A stretch of DNA of 64,000 bases from contig NC_003281.10 in the NCBI RefSeq assembly GCF_000002985.6, forward strand, positions 7,192,001 through 7,256,000, in the 5' to 3' direction. Positions 41,202-50,900 of the stretch are shown here, one piece after another. The DNA is from Caenorhabditis elegans (Eukaryota; Nematoda; Chromadorea; Rhabditida; Rhabditidae). Each line of letters opens with the position of its first letter. Within the stretch, counting starts at the first letter, position 1. The notes below the pieces were generated by a model, which did no database searches, was not told the origin of the DNA, and worked only from the letters and a program-made list of their open reading frames with translations. The translations under genes and the position numbers were made by a program.

Positions 41202-42181
<980 letters not shown>

Positions 42182-42629
42182 TTTGACAGCGTGGTTAAGT
42201 TACTGAAAAACGTATTATTGATAGACTACATTTAATTTAATTGGAATGAAGTGTTTATAATAGAAAAACATTGATAAATATAAAATTGAACACGAAAAAA
42301 TATTAAAAAAGCGAGAAAGACGCAAACATGTCCTGCAGGTGCACGAGAAACGCGCCAACGATGAACCAAGGGCGCAACTTCTGCGTTCCAACAAAGTTTA
42401 ATTCCCAAATATCTATTTAAATACTTTTAGCCTTTCAATTTATATATTTTATATTGTTATTATGTTTAAATATTTGTCAAATAACATAATTTTATCGTTT
42501 AGTGTTTCTAAGCACGCTTATTGTCACAATAATTTTACTTTAATGCTTTGTTTCTTGAGAAATTAGGAAAACTGTTCTCAAGTTTGCTTCCGAATATTTG
42601 TTTCTCAATTTACTTCTCATAAATATATA
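42182..42629. other. Divergent promoter side of the NDUFS8 gene
   Basis: About 450 bp with no coding potential seen; a GC-richer patch around 42310-42390 lies immediately upstream of the operon start and is the likely promoter. Confidence 0.4.
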
Positions 42630-43949
42630 TTCTCGGGTCGCTGCGCTCCCCCGAGAAAAGGTTTTCCCTTGTTCCTAGCTCCGTTCGAGAGAAATGAGGT
42701 ACGAGAAAAGGAGGAAATTGAGTTACAGAATTTATGGGCTTTGCGTGTGGTACAGGTCGTGACAAAAGTAGAAAATTAGGGGCAGTTGGGCGCCAGGCGC
42801 CCAACTTGAACGATATGAGGGCCACGAACGGTATAAATTGGGGAAATTTAATGTGCTGACGCCGTCGTGAAGAGCCCGATCGTTCGATGTTGCCGACATG
42901 ATGTTGACTGTGCAGGAGCTGCTGGTGTTGCTGATGGAGCCGACTGTGCTGAAGTACGTGCTGCAAAAACGAAAAAGGACGGACCGAAAGTACTTATTAT
43001 TGGTTAAGGTGGCAAAAGAGGTAAAATGGTAAACCAACGTGAATCGATAATCCTGGCAACTCCTGTAGATCTGATACTTGAAGCTCGTCTGCTGCCCAAA
43101 CAAGGATCGTCGCTTCTCAACCCTCTGTTTTCGCGTTCCACCCACGTGCGAACAATCCGAAATTTCCCTAAATCCTTGACAAGAGCCCGCGAGATCTTTC
43201 ACTGCCGCTCTCCGTTATGTCTCCTGAATACCTAAAAATGGCGAACTGATCTGAAAACAAATTATGTTAATTAGGATAGTTTATAGTTTGGGGATTATGG
43301 CCGTTTCCCATTTAAAAGACCCCGAAAAAGAACTACCTGTAGTCTGTTATGAAGTAATCTCGCGACTCGTGGCCGACCGCGGTTTTCTCCACTCCGTTAG
43401 TTATCCTTTCCTTATCCAGGTCTTATCCGAAACTTGAAAACTTGTTCTTGTTGGCTCGCTGGATTCCTTCCCTGCCGTTCCAATGTCACCCTTGATACCT
43501 CTAGGGAATTTCCTGTAAACCTTCAACGCCTGCAAATCGCCAAAATTAACCTTTAGGGATATCAATTTTTGGTCGCTATTAAAAAATTTTTAAACCTTTC
43601 CTGCCACCGCCAAAAAAGACTGACAGATTACTCCTGCAATTATTTCGGAGGAATCCTGCCTGTCTACTCTGGTGGAATTGCGGAATTTTAAGAATAAGTT
43701 ACCTGTCCTCGTGTTTGTCAACCTACCCACAATAGCTCGGTGTTAGAACCGCCGCTAGAATAGTGAATATAGAGTAGCAAAAATATCAGTCGAGGGGTGG
43801 GCGGGCGGGAACTCACACGTAGAATGAGGAGAAACAGGCGCCGGAGCCCGCGGGGCGCTTGTCGCGGCGAGACCCGTGCCGGAGGAAAATGCCTGCGCCT
43901 TTAGTTTGCTACTGTCTCTCTCACTCCGCTGTCACGGGAAAACATCCCA
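42630..43949. mobile_element. Repeat element 1 of a head-to-tail pair (non-coding, unclassified)
   Basis: Bounded by block A (42630-42756) and block B (43811-43949). Block A opens with an 8-bp stem, TTCTCGGG and CCCGAGAA, around a 12-base loop. Block B ends in CACGGGAAAACATCCCA. GC content is clearly above the surroundings. No ORF with a recognisable domain was found; a GGGCGCCAGGCGCCC palindrome lies at about 42788. Termini are not simple inverted repeats. A terminal hairpin and absence of coding sequence would suit a non-autonomous Helitron, but I cannot confirm the canonical ends. Confidence 0.6.
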
Positions 43950-44700
43950 TTCTCGGGTCGCTGCGCTCCCCCGAGAAAAGGTTTTCCCTTGTTCCTAGCT
44001 CCGTTCGAGAGAAATGAGGTACGAGAAAAGGAGGAAATTGAGTTACAGAATTTATGGGCTTTGCGTGTGGTACAGGGTAGAACAAGAAAAGCCTCGGGGC
44101 TATAAGTGACCGTGTGGTTTCAACTAAAAAATTCTAATGAAGCCTCTGTCAACCGATAACGCAAGTCGCCCATTACCGAAAAAATTTTTGAAAAACTAAA
44201 TTATCTTACTCGCCAGTCTCGGCCAGAATGTTTTTATATCGAAGTGTATTGTTTACCTAGTAGACTCTAACCTGGAAGTCGTTCTAAACTTCGTTCTCCT
44301 GTGTTATTCCGTAAGGTATCGTCTGATTTGCACCTCGATGGTTGTCATATCGATAAAGCCAGTATTATTCTCGCCTGATAAACCTCCTCGCTCGGAACCC
44401 TGATTGTCCGAATCGAATCATAGTTCGCCAAAAACCGGTAAAAAAGAGCGTTTAATCCAGCATCAGGCAAATTTCTACTGTTTCTACATATTCGTAATAT
44501 TTGAGGACCCGGAACGTGTGTAGGACCTCCTGTACTCCGTGATCAGAAAAACTACCAAGGGAACATTATATTACTGAAAAACTACCCGAAAAAGCAGAAA
44601 ATTTCGTTGACTCTGTCGATAGATAGAATAATCTATGGGTAAAAATCCTTCTAATTGAAAAGACACTGTAAAACGATTGTTTCGTTCTGGGAAAGGCGAT

Positions 44701-44717
44701 GGGGGGGGGGGGGGGGG
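44701..44717. repeat. Mononucleotide run of 17 G
   Basis: Uninterrupted G17 between GAT and TTTCCCC. Long G tracts form quadruplexes, and in C. elegans such tracts are the sites deleted in dog-1 (FANCJ helicase) mutants. Confidence 0.95.
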
Positions 44718-45037
44718 TTTCCCCGGAACCCCGCTACACTAATCGGCTATTATCTTGAAAACCAGTTATGGTATAATTGAGAAGAACGAACATTATCTCA
44801 AAAAACTCCGAACTCTCGTTTTCCTCAGCGGGCAAAACAGACGATAACTAGCTATCCTCTGTTCAGAACTCGAACAAAATTTCTCTCGACCCAAAACTGA
44901 GAAGGTCGTCCTTCCCGCGACAGAAAATTGTCGTACGTCTGGCTTTCCTAGGTAGAACTGTCGGGAAAAAGCACACGATACTCTACCCCGCGCTAAATTA
45001 TACACTTTCCTCTGCAGAAACTGCTACAAATTCTATA

Positions 45038-45290
45038 TTTTCTCGACGGAGGCCGTCGGACATCACACTTTCCTCGACAGAAGCTGTCGGACATCACGCT
45101 TTCCTCGACAGAAGCTGTCGGACATCACGCTTTCCTCGACAGAAGCTGTCGGACCTCACACTTTCATCGACAGAAGCTGCCGGAACTATTACCTTCTCCG
45201 ACCGATGCTGTCGGACCTCATTCTCACCTTGCCAGAAGCTGTCGAATATATAAACCTTCTTCGACGGAGGTTGTCGAAAAACTCCACATT
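45038..45290. repeat. 31-bp minisatellite with a hairpin in every unit
   Basis: About eight units with period near 31 bp. The core CGACAGAAGCTGTCG is a palindrome that would fold (CGACAG/CTGTCG). The three central units (about 45068-45160) are nearly identical, the outer ones diverge but keep compensating changes such as CGACGGAGGCCGTCG. Confidence 0.85.
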
Positions 45291-46203
45291 AAAACTGACC
45301 GGAGACCAAAAATAATTTTATAAAACCGCACCCCGCCTCGACGTTTCTTTTACCTTGATTTTGTCAAAAAGGGAATACAATTCATTCTAAAATTAGGTAA
45401 CGATATCGATATCTGACGAGGCGATGCGAAGTTTTTAAACAACTGAAACTAAGCTGCTGGAGACTGAAATCACCTGTCCAGACCATGGGCCGGTTATACA
45501 CTACTTACTCTTTTAATAACCCAAATATGCCGAGATTGATTATTTACGTAGAGAAATTTAAACGGAATGTGCGAGATCAATAGCAAGCAATTTGACGAAA
45601 AACGAGCGGTTTACAAAGATATGTTATTTGAAAAAGCGACTCGAATCTAGGCTTAAAATATTTTGAGAAGGAGAGGAAAAGGATAACACATTGAGACGAA
45701 AGCAAGAGATAAACCAAGATCTACCAAAAACGGAAAACCAATTTCCGACTATCCGCCGGACTTATAGCCGAAAAGAATAATTTAAGTTTAATAACAGCGA
45801 ACGATCGGAGAGAAAGGAGAAAATTCAAATAATCCAGGTCTGAAAACACAAATCTGTTACGAAAAACGCTCTCGAAAACATTCACGCCAATACTCATACT
45901 AAGCTATCTGTTTATCACACACATAAGCGCTAACTATTGCCTAAATGACGAAAAATATTTACAAAAATCACTAAACAACCCCTAATTAATGAAAAAATGG
46001 CAAAAATTCGCAAAAAAATCGCAAAAAACGCATAACATCGATAAAAAACACGACCTCTACGCTACTCACACGTAGAATGAGGAGAAACAGGCGCCGGAGC
46101 GCCGCGGGGCGCTTGTCGCGGCGAGACCCGTGCCGGAGGAAAATGCCTGCGCCTTTAGTTTGCTACTGTTTCTCTCACTCCGCTGTCACGGGAAAACATC
46201 CCA

Positions 46204-47037
46204 GAACTTTCACATAGTTTTTTTCGAATATGCCTTACATTTTTCACAGCAACGAAAAAGAAATAGAAACAACTTATAAGCGTGAATTATTGGAGGATAA
46301 CTCACGTTTGATCAAAAATATTAAATTAAAAAGTAACAGCTTAACGTAGACGTTGCGATTTCCAATTCTATGTTTCCTTCTGACTTGTTCAAAATTTAAT
46401 CGGCAAGCATTTTATATATGTAGAATCGTCAATTTAATAAATTTTACTTCGTCTCTTTCAAAACTGCAAGCTGTGAGGAAGTTAAAATTCTTTAATTTGA
46501 TATATTTCCCCCACCTCAAAAACTTCATTTGACCACTGTGTTTGCGGATAGTTCTCCTGACATTCCTGTTCTCTTCAGTGTCGATTTGGAAGTCGGAAGC
46601 CTAGCCTCGCCCTCTCGTTGTCCGTCTTCTCCCTTTTCACGCGGTAAATTTGTTTCATCCATTCATTCCGCTACCTTGTTTGTCTTCTTCTCTTCATTTT
46701 TATTCACTATAGTTCCTTGTTCAAGTCGGAGCTTGGTGTTTCTGACTAAAAAGTTAAAAATATATGTTCTAATCTATTTTTATTAATCAAAAAATGGGCT
46801 TGGTCCCATAATTGATATTCATATTTTGTTGGACAACCTATTTCCCAAAAATTACACTCCTAAATTGTCAATCCAAATATCACGAAATATTATTGTACAT
46901 AGTTTCCGTTGCTTTCCTCATACTCATTCTCACAACAACAATTCGCAATATTTCGCAATCACTCATCCTTCCTCTGTTTTTTCAATTTAAATGGCTACAA
47001 AGTTAATAAAAAATACTGATTTTCAGTTTGGGAAGTA
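46204..47037. other. pars-1 upstream region
   Basis: About 830 bp of AT-rich sequence between element 2 and pars-1. No gene supported; small plus-strand ORFs lack codon bias and splice context. Confidence 0.5.
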
Positions 47038-49101
47038 ATGTCGACGAAAGAAGAAATTACAAAAGAGATCGAGGAGCAAGGAGCCGAAGTCCGCCGTGTG
47101 AAAGGTGACAAGAACTCCACAGAGGTTTGTCGTTTAAAAAAAATAGGAAAATAGTTATAAAAAATACTAATTAAATTTGAATCAAAAGTTTAATTCGAAA
47201 TTCAATTGATACGTACTTTTAAATATTTTTCAAGGAAGCAAAAAAAGAAGCAATCGACAAGCTTCTTGCTCTGAAGCTTACTTACAAGGAGGTTACCGGA
47301 CAAGAGTACGCAGCTCCAAATGCTCGTCAATCCAAACCAAAGAAGGAAGAGAAACCAAAACAACAGCCAAAGCAACAAGAAAAGAAACAAGATGGAAAGA
47401 AGCAGACATTGTTAGGAGTTGGAACCAAGAAAGATGATAACTATTCGGAATGGTACAGTGAAGTTATCACTAAGGCAGAAATGATCGAATACTATGATGT
47501 ATCTGGTTGCTATGTTCTTAGACCATGGTCATTTGCAGTTTGGGAATCTATTCAAGAATGGTTTGATTCTGGAATTAAGAAATTAGGAGTGAAGAACTGC
47601 TACTTCCCAATGTTCGTATCAAATGCTGCCCTCGAACGCGAAAAGACTCATATTGCTGATTTTGCCCCAGAAGTTGCTTGGGTTACTCGTGCTGGAAACT
47701 CTGAAATGGCCGAACCAATCGCTATTCGCCCAACTTCAGAGACAGTTATGTACCCATCTTACAAGAAATGGGTTCAATCTCATCGCGATCTTCCAATCAA
47801 GTTGAACCAATGGTGCAATGTTGTTGTAAGTATTGATTTTTTAATTGAAATTAGTTAAAAATTTTTATAAATTTCTGTTGAATTTCTCCTAGCTGTCTTG
47901 CTCCACTGCAAAAATATTATCATAATACTTTTTTCCTTTACAGCGATGGGAGTTCAAGCATCCAACACCATTCCTTCGTACTCGTGAATTTCTCTGGCAA
48001 GAGGGACATACGGCTTTTGCCAACCCAGCAGACGCTGAAAAAGAGGTTTTCCAAATCCTTGATCTCTACGCAGGAGTCTACACTGATTTGCTCGCTATCC
48101 CAGTTGTGAAGGGACGAAAGAGTGAGAAGGAAAAGTTTGCTGGAGGAGATTTTACGACGACAGTCGAAGCATACGTGGCATGCAATGGTAGAGGAATCCA
48201 AGGAGCAACTTCTCACCATCTCGGACAAAATTTCTCCAAGATGTTTGATATTTCGTACGAGGATCCAGCGAAGGAAGGAGAACGAGCATTCGCTTGGCAA
48301 AATTCGTGGGGTCTTTCCACTCGTACCATTGGTGCAATGGTAATGATTCACGGAGATGACAAGGGATTAGTACTTCCACCAAGAGTTGCCGCTGTTCAAG
48401 TTATTGTTGTTCCAGTTGGATTCAAGACTGAGAACAAGCAATCGCTTTTCGATGCTGTTGATAAGGTTACCAAGGATTTGGTCGCGGATGGAGTAAAGGC
48501 TGAGCACGATTTGAGGTTTGAAATTAATAATGAATGCAGTTATGTACGTTTTTAATTACAGAGAAAACTACAATGCTGGCTGGAAGTTCAATCATTGGGA
48601 ATTGAAAGGAGTCCCAATCCGTTTTGAGGTCGGACCAAATGATTTGGCAAAGAACCAGGTAACCGCTGTAATCCGTCACAACGGAGAGAAGAAACAACTT
48701 TCCCTGGAAGGACTGTCTAAAACTGTCAAATCTCTTCTTGATGAAATTCATACTGCTATGTACAATAAGTTGGTTAAAATTTTTAAAAGTTGAAATAAAT
48801 TCCATACTTCAGGGTACTCGCTCAACGTGACTCTCACCTGAAGAGCACCACGTGCATCGAAGAATTCAAGAAGCTTCTTGACGAGAAGTGCATTATACTG
48901 TCCCCATTCTGTGGTCGTCCAGACTGTGAAGAGGAAATCAAGAAGGCATCAACAAGAGAAGACGGAGAAGGCGCACAGATGGGAGCCAAGACGTTATGTA
49001 TTCCATTGGATCAACCAAAACAAGAACTTCCATCAAAATGTCTTTTCCCATCATGCACATACAATGCCAAGGCTTTCGCTCTGTTTGGAAGAAGTTATTA
49101 A
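47038..49101 (+). CDS. pars-1: Prolyl-tRNA synthetase, cytoplasmic, with WHEP domain
   Basis: Five exons (47038-47124, 47235-47825, 47944-48515, 48562-48768, 48813-49101) encode 581 aa. Residues about 5-60 form a WHEP helix-turn-helix domain ([20 protein letters not shown], then [19 protein letters not shown]), followed by a Lys/Gln-rich linker and the class II core: motif 2 region [20 protein letters not shown] and [14 protein letters not shown], motif 3 region including [20 protein letters not shown]. The C-terminal zinc-binding domain carries CGRPDC and CLFPSC. In most animals this half is fused to GluRS as EPRS; here it stands alone, as known for nematodes. The enzyme charges tRNA-Pro in the cytosol. 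A TTTTCAG acceptor lies 12 nt before the ATG. Confidence 0.96.
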
Positions 49102-49389: not shown

Positions 49390-50900
49390 ATGTCGTCATC
49401 CAGTGAATCCGATTCCGAAGGAGAACGGTAACATCATTTAACTTTAGATTTCCAGATATTTTCAGCGGTCTTAAATTTCAGAAAACTTCCTTTGTCGTAT
49501 CGTAGAAAAAGACGACGTGATTCGAGTTCAACAACCAACTCCGAAGTATCCGATAATGATAGAAAAAAACGGCAAAACGAGAAGCGGAGAAGCCGTGAGT
49601 CATCCAAGATGAAGCATCAAAAAACGGCGAAACGGGACAAACCAATGTGGAAAGAGGAAGGAGAAATTTCATGGTGAGCACAGTTTTCATTGCATTAGAA
49701 GATTTCTTTCATTTTCAGTGACAGTGAGAGTGACGTCTGTAATTCCTCGAGTAGCAACAACCGGAGCCGCTGTCGTGATCGGCGAAGAAGAACTGATTAC
49801 GGAAGAAGACGTCACAGAAATTCAGATTCTAGATCTCATGAGAGATGGAGTACTAGAAGAAGACAGACAACTCCAGAGGGAAATTTCAGATGTGATGAGT
49901 GTGGATGTAACCACTACACTTTGAAGGTAATTGACTATGGACACAAAAGTGCAAGCTTCTGACGTAATAGATGAAATAAGCATTATTGCATTGGTGACTC
50001 GGTTTGCAACAATATCACACAGTCGCAAAGTTTGCGATTTTCGCGCGAAGAATACGGTGCTCGGTCTCTATGCGACTGTTTTTGTTAAATTTTTTAAAAA
50101 GCGTGCGCCTTTGAAGAGTACTGTAATTTCAAAATTTTATTCTGCGGAATTTTCAGGAGTTTTTAAGAATAATTTTTCTCCAGATCTTTTGAGAGTTCTG
50201 GGGTTTATGGTTATATTTATTTTTTAAATATACTTCTATTGAAAAACTATCGTTTTAAATTCCGCAGAAACTAGATTTGGAAATTACAGTACTCTTTAAA
50301 GACGCGCGCCTTTTTGTATTGAGCAAAAATAAATGTCGTCTCGAGACCAGGAACCGTATTTTTGTGCAATAGTCGCAAAATTTCGCGTCTGTGTAATAGA
50401 AAGGTTTGAGTTTAATGGAATAACTCACTTTTGCTCAAAATTTCATATATTAAATTAGTAAACACCTCTGCAGCTTGACACCGACTGGCACACACAAAAT
50501 ATTAAACTTTCAGGGTCTAATCCATCACGAAATGAACGACCACAACCTCAATGCAAAATGTCATTTATGCCAGAAATCTTTCGAGAATAAGAAGACATTC
50601 CGTGAACACTGTGAATTGGATCACACACCGGAAGTGGTATGACAGTATTCATTAACAGATTCAATTTGAAATATTAATTTTAGGTTAGATGTGTATTCTG
50701 CAAAAGCTCATTCGATCAGCCACTGGAAATGAACGATGAACAATGGGCACACTTTTTCGCTCATATTTATGGGGTTAGTAATTCACCATTCGAATCTAGA
50801 AGTCGATTCTCCTGACTGACATTTTTAAAACCATTTTTTCCAGGAAATCCTCTACTCCCGCCTTGCCGACTACGAGGATCGTGCTTTGAACACTGCATGA
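49390..50900 (+). CDS. C2H2 zinc-finger protein with Arg/Ser-rich N terminus
   Basis: Six exons (49390-49427, 49482-49673, 49719-49926, 50514-50636, 50684-50773, 50844-50900) encode 235 aa. Residues 1-130 are almost entirely Ser, Arg, Lys, Asp and Glu (MSSSSESDSEGER and many RR/RS pairs), as in nuclear RNA-associated proteins. The second half has three Cys pairs: CDECGCNHYTLKGLIHHEMN, CHLCQKSFENKKTFREHCEL with DH, and CVFCKSSFDQP ending in AHFFAHIYG. These look like consecutive C2H2-type fingers. The gene starts about 290 bp after pars-1 on the same strand and could share its transcript, though the acceptor before the ATG (TTTTAG, then a T-rich stretch) is weak. Intron 3 holds a foldback repeat. 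Exact function unknown. Confidence 0.82.
50025..50395. repeat. Foldback DNA repeat in intron 3 of the C2H2 gene
   Basis: ATACGGTGCTCGGTCTC and GTGCGCCTTTGAAGAGTACT on the left arm. TACAGTACTCTTTAAAGACG and GTCTCGAGACCAGGAACCGT on the right. About 370 bp with a longer unpaired centre than its relatives. Confidence 0.7.

Follow-up and report, generated by a model that had tools for sequence, protein, structure and literature searches.

A non-autonomous composite repeat of Caenorhabditis elegans, probably a tyrosine-recombinase mobile element with split direct repeats

Layout of the composite and its copies in the genome

In a window of 64,000 nucleotides of Caenorhabditis elegans DNA (C3:7192001-7256000, the window being the whole stretch analysed and the prefixes C1 to C6 denoting contigs), a composite repeat at positions 42630-46203 consists of two cassettes set head to tail, each with a block A at its left end, a block B at its right end and an interior of its own, int1 or int2 (Table 1). 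An earlier note on this DNA had described a perfect 127-bp block A at both places, a block B of about 140 bp with few differences, two interiors that do not match and a first B that abuts the second A without a spacer, and each of these observations was borne out. A1 and A2 were identical over 127/127 bp, B1 (139 bp) and B2 (140 bp) were identical in 138/140 alignment columns, and B1 ended at 43949 with A2 starting at 43950. No similarity was found between int1 (1054 bp) and int2 (1987 bp), the local score of 27 (28 when reversed) lying at the level of 30 shuffles (mean, 28.3; maximum, 34). The terminal hairpin that had been noticed was likewise present, its stem (TTCTCGGG/CCCGAGAA) lying inside the first 28 bases of A, and neither a terminal inverted repeat nor a target duplication was seen at the window copy. 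A long terminal repeat retrotransposon was rejected as a candidate, given that the left end A differs from the right end B and that there is no target duplication.

Searches of the genome (100,286,401 bp, 7 contigs) returned at least 20 matches of A and at least 17 of B, counts that exclude a chance origin of the two blocks. The whole layout A1-int1-B1/A2-int2-B2 (the slash marking the join), the two interior classes keeping their order, was present in 8 complete copies belonging to at least three families (the window, L013, in which B1 is truncated, L014, L015, L051, L052, L053, and L063); the order was reversed in 0/8. Family ends diverge to ~65% identity, and the recurrence of the same layout across the genome agrees with the non-autonomous mobile family with conserved ends that the earlier note had proposed. 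Family 1 comprises the window, L009 to L011, L017, and L020, and family 2 comprises L013 to L016 and L019; A and B differ by ~12 to 20% between the two. The pattern GAGAAAANGTTTTCCC, with at most 1 mismatch, gave 60 matches compared with 21 for the reversed control, and ten stretches around 14 matches were opened, most other one-mismatch matches being left unopened. This search yielded family 3 (L051, L052, and L053) plus the relatives L054 and L055, while L056 to L060 (two of the five GCGAAAAAG matches among them) lacked the hairpin and were dropped. Family-3 composites measured ~4.0 kb, with cassettes of 1469 to 1502 and 2544 to 2564 bp, and were identical to the window in 83/129 positions of A and 100/151 of B. 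With the family-3 junction as query, 35 matches were obtained; among the loci then opened, L063 was a complete composite, the composites at L064, L065, L066, and L062/L070 were incomplete within the fetched stretch, and these loci, with the exception of L066, form a further branch together with L067, L068, and L069 (family 4).

Single cassettes were found as well. Seven were of the A-int1-B type (L009, L010, L011, L067, L069, one unit on C2, and one on C5) and one, L068, was of the A-int2-B type; the C2 unit holds a tyrosine-recombinase (YR) frame, and the C5 unit is a 347-bp derivative of it. Partial or broken copies (L012, L016 to L024 except those named, L054, L055, and L061) stand outside the counts of composites and singles. 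Independent movement would explain the single cassettes, and so would recombination inside a composite. When the whole of int1 and the first 925 bp of int2 were used as genome queries, the listed matches all fell at loci holding A or B, and the suggestion that the family captures sequence was dropped, gene capture included. Set against the refuting condition of the earlier note, the outcome was mixed: A and B proved widespread, but the interiors between them fall into two fixed classes, as expected of a split-direct-repeat element. The earlier note had also left two options for the pair, a tandem mobilised as a unit and a double insertion at the same spot, and only the first stood up. Two separate insertions, or a local duplication, would accord with the finding of the first cassette alone at three other family sites, but the same int1-int2 pair recurs in the same order in three families and in 8 complete composites at different places, and we regard such an origin as scarcely credible.

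Some of the less regular copies, and the surroundings of the window copy, carry features of their own. At L017/L018, int1 contains large tandem arrays with a period of ~122 bp, and the start of A1 is replaced by a ~50-bp copy of the right flank. L020 is flanked on both sides by TTTAAGGATT and may represent filler DNA or a junction fragment that was captured. At L012 (C4:6090948-6091008), 61 bp that match the start region of the C2 unit at 93% identity lie soon after an A-int2 start, perhaps marking a mixed or nested copy. Within int2 of the window there is a run of 17 G (44701-44717), and its L016 relative also has a homopolymer run. Exons at 47040-49101 (+), ~0.84 kb past the element, resemble what we take to be a prolyl-tRNA synthetase. 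An apparent palindromic repeat at 50000-50380 contains GGTCTC...GCGCCTTT words; these recur, in part inverted, within block B as well as in the repeat entered by L014. An Rfam scan of 42000-47000 gave 0 matches at the gathering score.

Table 1. Parts of the composite at 42630-46203 of the window, and coordinates of related loci
Feature	Position	Strand	Remark
A1, outer left end repeat	42630..42756	+	End set by multi-copy comparison; right terminal repeat when the element is read on the - strand (recombinase direction)
Terminal hairpin of A1	42630..42657	+	Stem TTCTCGGG/CCCGAGAA
int1, interior of cassette 1	42757..43810	.	1054 bp
Palindrome GTTGGGCGCC-A-GGCGCCCAAC near int1 start	42785..42805	.	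Read from the sequence
G-rich lead-in to B1	43794..43810	+	Common to the C2 relative and family 3
B1, internal copy of right-end repeat	43811..43949	+	139 bp
Junction fold	43936..43988	+	Outer stem GGGAAAAC (43936-43943) with GTTTTCCC (43981-43988)
Junction fold, inner stem	43950-43957 with 43970-43977	+	
ATT at B1/A2 junction	43949..43951	+	Presumed crossover core
A2, internal copy of left-end repeat	43950..44076	+	Identical to A1
int2, interior of cassette 2	44077..46063	.	1987 bp; coding match none
Conserved int2 start GTAGAACAAGAAAAGCCTCGGGGCTATA	44077..44104	+	Score 41 against family-3 int2
31-bp minisatellite in int2	45038..45244	+	Shared with further int2 copies (families 1 and 2)
B2, outer right end repeat	46064..46203	+	140 bp
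L013, composite	C4:15782350-15786275		
L014, composite	C4:12293692-12297603		
L015, composite	C1:1077946-1082646		
L017/L018, broken composite copy	C3:6563771-6575459		
L009, single A-int1-B cassette	C5:15115471-15116813		
L010, single A-int1-B cassette	C4:16758322-16759656		
L011, single A-int1-B cassette	C6:15920690-15922036		
L020, B/A junction only	C4:4658767-4658975		209-bp piece

Repeat identity, insertion sites and the junction fold

Within composites the two copies of each repeat were nearly identical, with 97.7 to 100% identity of A1 and A2 in 7/8 complete composites and 97.9 to 100% identity of B1 and B2 in the 6 measured; identity between sub-families was 80 to 93%. Besides the window, A1 and A2 agreed in 127/128 positions in L013, 126/129 in L014, and 124/126 in L015 and, in family 3, in 113/113 (L051), 112/113 (L052), and 113/113 (L053). 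The corresponding values for B1 and B2 were 141/143 (L014), 141/141 (L015), 139/140 (L051), 137/140 (L052), and 139/140 (L053). B1 of L013 is without its start, B1 of L017 has a 12-bp gap, and L063 lies outside these measurements. Such homogenisation within composites is, as far as the alignments tell, the behaviour of repeats that are regenerated at each round of movement.

We searched the flank pairs of seven insertions for uninterrupted relatives and scored 40 of 280 candidates. Paralogous empty sites spanning the join were found for 3/7 insertions (L014, L015, and the short C5 element), and there was no target duplication. For L014, 1 of 8 aligned relatives had exactly the joined sequence GCGATTTTGAG and one more had equal spacing, the remaining six being one base different in length and carrying substitutions. 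One of 6 relatives of the L015 site (L041) was ungapped over the join, and five had 8 to 9 extra bases nearby; all 3 relatives of the short C5 element were collinear, on the right side over a few bases only. The empty sites of L014 and L015 lacked the whole composite, which again argues against two insertions at one spot. In L017/L018, the duplicated flank retains an unbroken ...CATA/TTACGG.... The left flank base was A in 17/21 cases and the right flank began with TT in 11/19, and ATT was present in 7/16 insertions with both flanks, compared with a background of 3.6% (these counts exclude internal junctions and L055, in which A starts one base short). From these flanks, A/TT appears to be the favoured target.

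A Helitron has a 5' TC, a 3' CTRR and a hairpin just before the 3' end. Two non-autonomous rolling-circle elements in tandem, the second arising by read-through of the first terminator, would account for the lack of target duplication, for insertion that mostly follows A and often precedes T, for a hairpin at one end and for tandem copies without a spacer. In the present elements, however, the hairpin occupies the extreme left, the right ends of the copies read are CCCA, ACCA, CCTA, CCAA, ATCA, ATAA, AAAA, and ACAA but never CTRR, no Rep/Helicase was seen with these ends, and a tyrosine recombinase is the sole gene that was found enclosed by them. We therefore consider tandem Helitrons very improbable. 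Insertion without target duplication is also described for DIRS1-like elements in the passages of PMC3266345, according to which these elements begin and end mostly with NTT, most commonly ATT, a sequence tied to the circular junction.

The B/A junctions were folded as DNA, 16 natural ones (none with a spacer) and 8 hypothetical ones. The outer stem GGGAAAAC/GTTTTCCC was perfect in 21/24, with one mismatch in L009, L016, and L053, and the lowest-energy fold was a two-step hairpin in 23/24, the hypothetical L009 junction being the exception. The lowest-energy fold of the window junction kept 7/8 outer pairs plus CC/GG. The inner stem begins at or beside the first base of A, and its bases differ between families while pairing is kept (CGGG/CCCG in families 1 and 2, CGG/CCG in family 3, CCC/GGG in the C2 and C5 units, and CAC/GTG beside a second recombinase relic on C3). 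It is replaced by a shorter or interrupted AATTCT/AGAATT in L061 to L064, L067, and L069 and lacks one or two pairs in L014, L052, and L066; the idea of a strictly conserved inner hairpin is weakened by these shortened or lost pairs and by the L009 fold. In 12 junctions compared with dinucleotide shuffles, z-scores ranged from -2.3 to -3.9. In families 1 to 3, the loop between the two stems holds the B/A crossover point.

That the recombinase uses this predicted fold is a conjecture. A single strand of the integron attC site forms a stepped hairpin in which the crossover point is unpaired, and the B/A junction is likewise predicted to form a stepped hairpin with the crossover in an unpaired part; in contrast, the present host is eukaryotic, the fold is predicted only and no kinship of the YR to integron integrases is claimed. 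The likeness could be extended to a eukaryotic cassette system, in which A-x-B would be the mobile unit and the B/A circle junction would be recognised by the YR in folded single-stranded form, as in attC. Cassettes of differing cargo would then travel alone or in ordered pairs, sometimes swapping partners, as a bipartite element without reverse transcription. We judge this system to be quite unlikely.

Tyrosine recombinase relics

The Phage_integrase model PF00589 had one match in the genome (C2:13211441-13211917; E = 1.4e-12). It lies in an open frame of 226 amino acids (E = 2.9e-15 by hmmscan) that aligned weakly with Cre (best E = 0.0051) over the R, HxxR and W...Y blocks, which hold the residues with known roles in tyrosine recombinases. 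The unit around this frame (C2:13210915-13212520) has an A-like block at its start and a full-length B-like block at its end, with the YR on the opposite strand, that is, with a recombinase frame on the - strand in the place of int1. Pieces of B near the YR gave weak blastn matches initially (E = 0.005 and 0.73) and were accepted after full local alignment against a tiled background, the B alignment scoring 67.5 compared with at most 32 in those 900-base tiles of the 20 kb that lie clear of it. The local score of window int1 against the C2 unit was 30, with no control run, and was taken as background. Both ends of the C2 unit are 97% identical in the 347-bp derivative at C5:15166653-15166999, and the C2 unit was therefore mobile. 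The frames on the + strand on either side of it (C2:13209606-13213838; L026/L027) resemble what is presumably an SNF2/Mot1-type helicase gene, and the unit apparently sits in an intron.

A second YR relic, found by protein search at C3:1446360-1446569, was 51% identical and had one stop. It is adjoined on the matching strand by an A-like block that was detected with A of family 4 (score, 56.5; background, 37.5) and A of L065 (53; background, 35.5), so that both YR relics found in the genome (2/2) lie beside an A-like end. The C2 unit (TTCTCCC/GGGAGAA) and the C3 relic (TTCTCAC/GTGAGAA) retain the stem of the terminal hairpin, with bases swapped. Judged by the alignments, the C2 relic is strongly linked to such an end and the C3 relic less strongly. 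An imperfect inverted repeat (arms of ~540 bp, 84%) at C3:1444330-1445980 (L049) adjoins the second relic. No YR frame was present among the open reading frames (ORFs) of the window copy that were put to Pfam.

A rival reading takes these to be Crypton-like elements that move as DNA only. On that model, A-YR-B would be an autonomous cassette that excises and inserts as a circle, with no reverse transcription, and the composite would have arisen when a second circle inserted at the B/flank end of the first, the dimer then becoming mobile as a unit. The C2 unit is indeed A-YR-B with no room for a reverse transcriptase (RT), it has a short derivative, cassettes of either kind occur singly (although such copies could also stem from recombination inside composites), and the two cassettes show some mismatch within families. 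Passages of PMC3212892 describe animal Cryptons with non-autonomous forms and no terminal repeats; sharing of both ends by non-autonomous forms and the lack of terminal inverted repeats are further likenesses. Neither split direct repeats nor a two-cassette form appear in these passages, and Caenorhabditis has 0 mentions in the main text of that paper. A YR-only, repeat-free layout fits the C2 unit but not the composites, in which int1 precedes int2 in 8/8 complete copies, whereas repeated tandem insertion would mix orders. The homogenisation of A1 with A2 and of B1 with B2, which is expected from split-direct-repeat replication, and the co-divergence of the cassettes at family level (see below) also speak against the model, and we hold it to be unlikely.

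A split-direct-repeat reading and what it means

For the class of the element, which the earlier note did not settle, the best reading is a YR element with split direct repeats: we put at roughly 70% the probability that 42630-46203 is one non-autonomous split-direct-repeat mobile element moved by a tyrosine recombinase. In support, the composite recurs in at least three families, there is no target duplication at the three insertions with empty sites, and the ends of the composite are those of the C2 unit that holds one of the two YR relics. The passages of PMC4157794 describe PAT elements with split direct repeats in the order A1-B1-A2-B2 and, in nematode Pat1, an internal repeat between methyltransferase (MT) and YR. 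The present elements share with Pat1-like nematode PAT elements, which belong to the DIRS order of tyrosine-recombinase retrotransposons, the arrangement A1-B1A2-B2, a YR between the same ends that is read away from the B-like block, the lack of target duplication and, in part of the copies but not at the window copy, what may be an NTT/ATT junction. They differ in that no RT, RNase H, gag or MT was found here (RT was not searched genome-wide), in that the copies examined have non-coding segments between their repeats, and in forming at least three families, compared with the 1 partial element given for C. elegans in the survey passages of PMC4157794 (1 YR match, 0 intact elements).

On the split-direct-repeat reading, the element would transiently be a circle with B joined to A, and the YR would recombine this B/A junction (core ATT) with an ATT-like chromosomal site; the product would be a linear insertion bounded by A on one side and by B on the other. 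The internal B1/A2 would be a second copy of the junction that regenerates the terminal sequence at each cycle, as proposed for split-direct-repeat retrotransposons, and would keep A1 equal to A2 and B1 equal to B2 and let single cassettes bud off. Read on the - strand, in the direction of the YR, the order would be repeat, int2, internal repeat, YR segment (in the place of int1), and repeat, that is, the published order of nematode Pat1 with the coding parts lost in the window element; int2 may be a replacement of the gag, RT and MT of an autonomous element. An RNA step would follow solely from the likeness to Pat1.

The two cassettes seem to travel together, at least at family level, as judged from their divergence. 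Comparison of subterminal motifs between families 1 and 3 gave the highest score for the own cassette in 4/4 cases (68, 41, 36, and 54), the best other-cassette score being 31, a narrow margin against the 36 and with no shuffle control; the alignment scoring 68, between the int1 interiors, includes a family-3 palindrome similar to GTTGGGCGCC-A-GGCGCCCAAC. In 10 loci with both cassettes readable, the distance matrices of units 1 and 2 gave a Mantel r of 0.94 that was reached by 0/5000 permutations, a value that mostly reflects the split of families 1 and 2 from families 3 and 4, with distances near saturation (0.47 to 0.59).

This origin of the Mantel r is one of several points that weigh against the split-direct-repeat reading. 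Within groups, the distances of L015 to L013 and L014 were 0.13 to 0.16 in unit 1 and 0.02 to 0.03 in unit 2, and the distance of L063 to L065 was 0.32 in unit 1 and 0.06 in unit 2; cassettes may therefore sometimes be exchanged, and strict co-inheritance of both is weakened by these mismatches. At C2, the order B'-YR-A' fits an internal repeat between MT and YR, but the unit is a single cassette, in which internal and terminal repeats are indistinguishable. At the C3 relic, the A-like block was missed by A of the window (26; background, 34.5) and barely detected by A of C2 (43; background, 40.5), and B was looked for and not found. The outer flanks of the window copy are A/GA, with no ATT site, and family 1 fits the target worst, with TT on the right in 1/5 (window, L009, L010, L011, and L017). 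As for coding capacity, gag, RT and MT were not found, RT not having been searched genome-wide, and Pfam gave nothing above the cut-off, and no RT, for 10 ORFs (6/36 window ORFs of at least 50 amino acids and 4/14 L051 ORFs of at least 70); a TMEM72 match among them (E = 0.051, below the cut-off) was taken as chance. The Dam-type methyltransferase model PF05869, which we take to be the nearest to the PAT methyltransferase, had 0 matches in the genome and was positive in 1/14 control genomes. With MT not found and RT not searched genome-wide, PAT membership is unproven, and the element is here called PAT-like rather than assigned to PAT.

In titles and the openings of abstracts we found no description of these repeats in C. 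elegans, though they may sit in Repbase or Dfam under another label, and a 19-base piece of A used as a literature text query returned no paper. The recurrent layout, together with the A-like end beside both YR relics, points to a kind of mobile DNA of which the survey passages of PMC4157794 give one partial copy in C. elegans. Domain-based protein surveys miss these copies because the copies examined are non-coding. If the split-direct-repeat reading is true, YR elements of this kind were once active in the C. elegans lineage and left copies in several families, some of which may still be polymorphic. The passages of PMC5633606 report circles for DIRS-1 of Dictyostelium and hold no circle test for a split-direct-repeat element; C. 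elegans would, if the reading is true, be a tractable animal in which to study the function of split direct repeats and of the circle junction.

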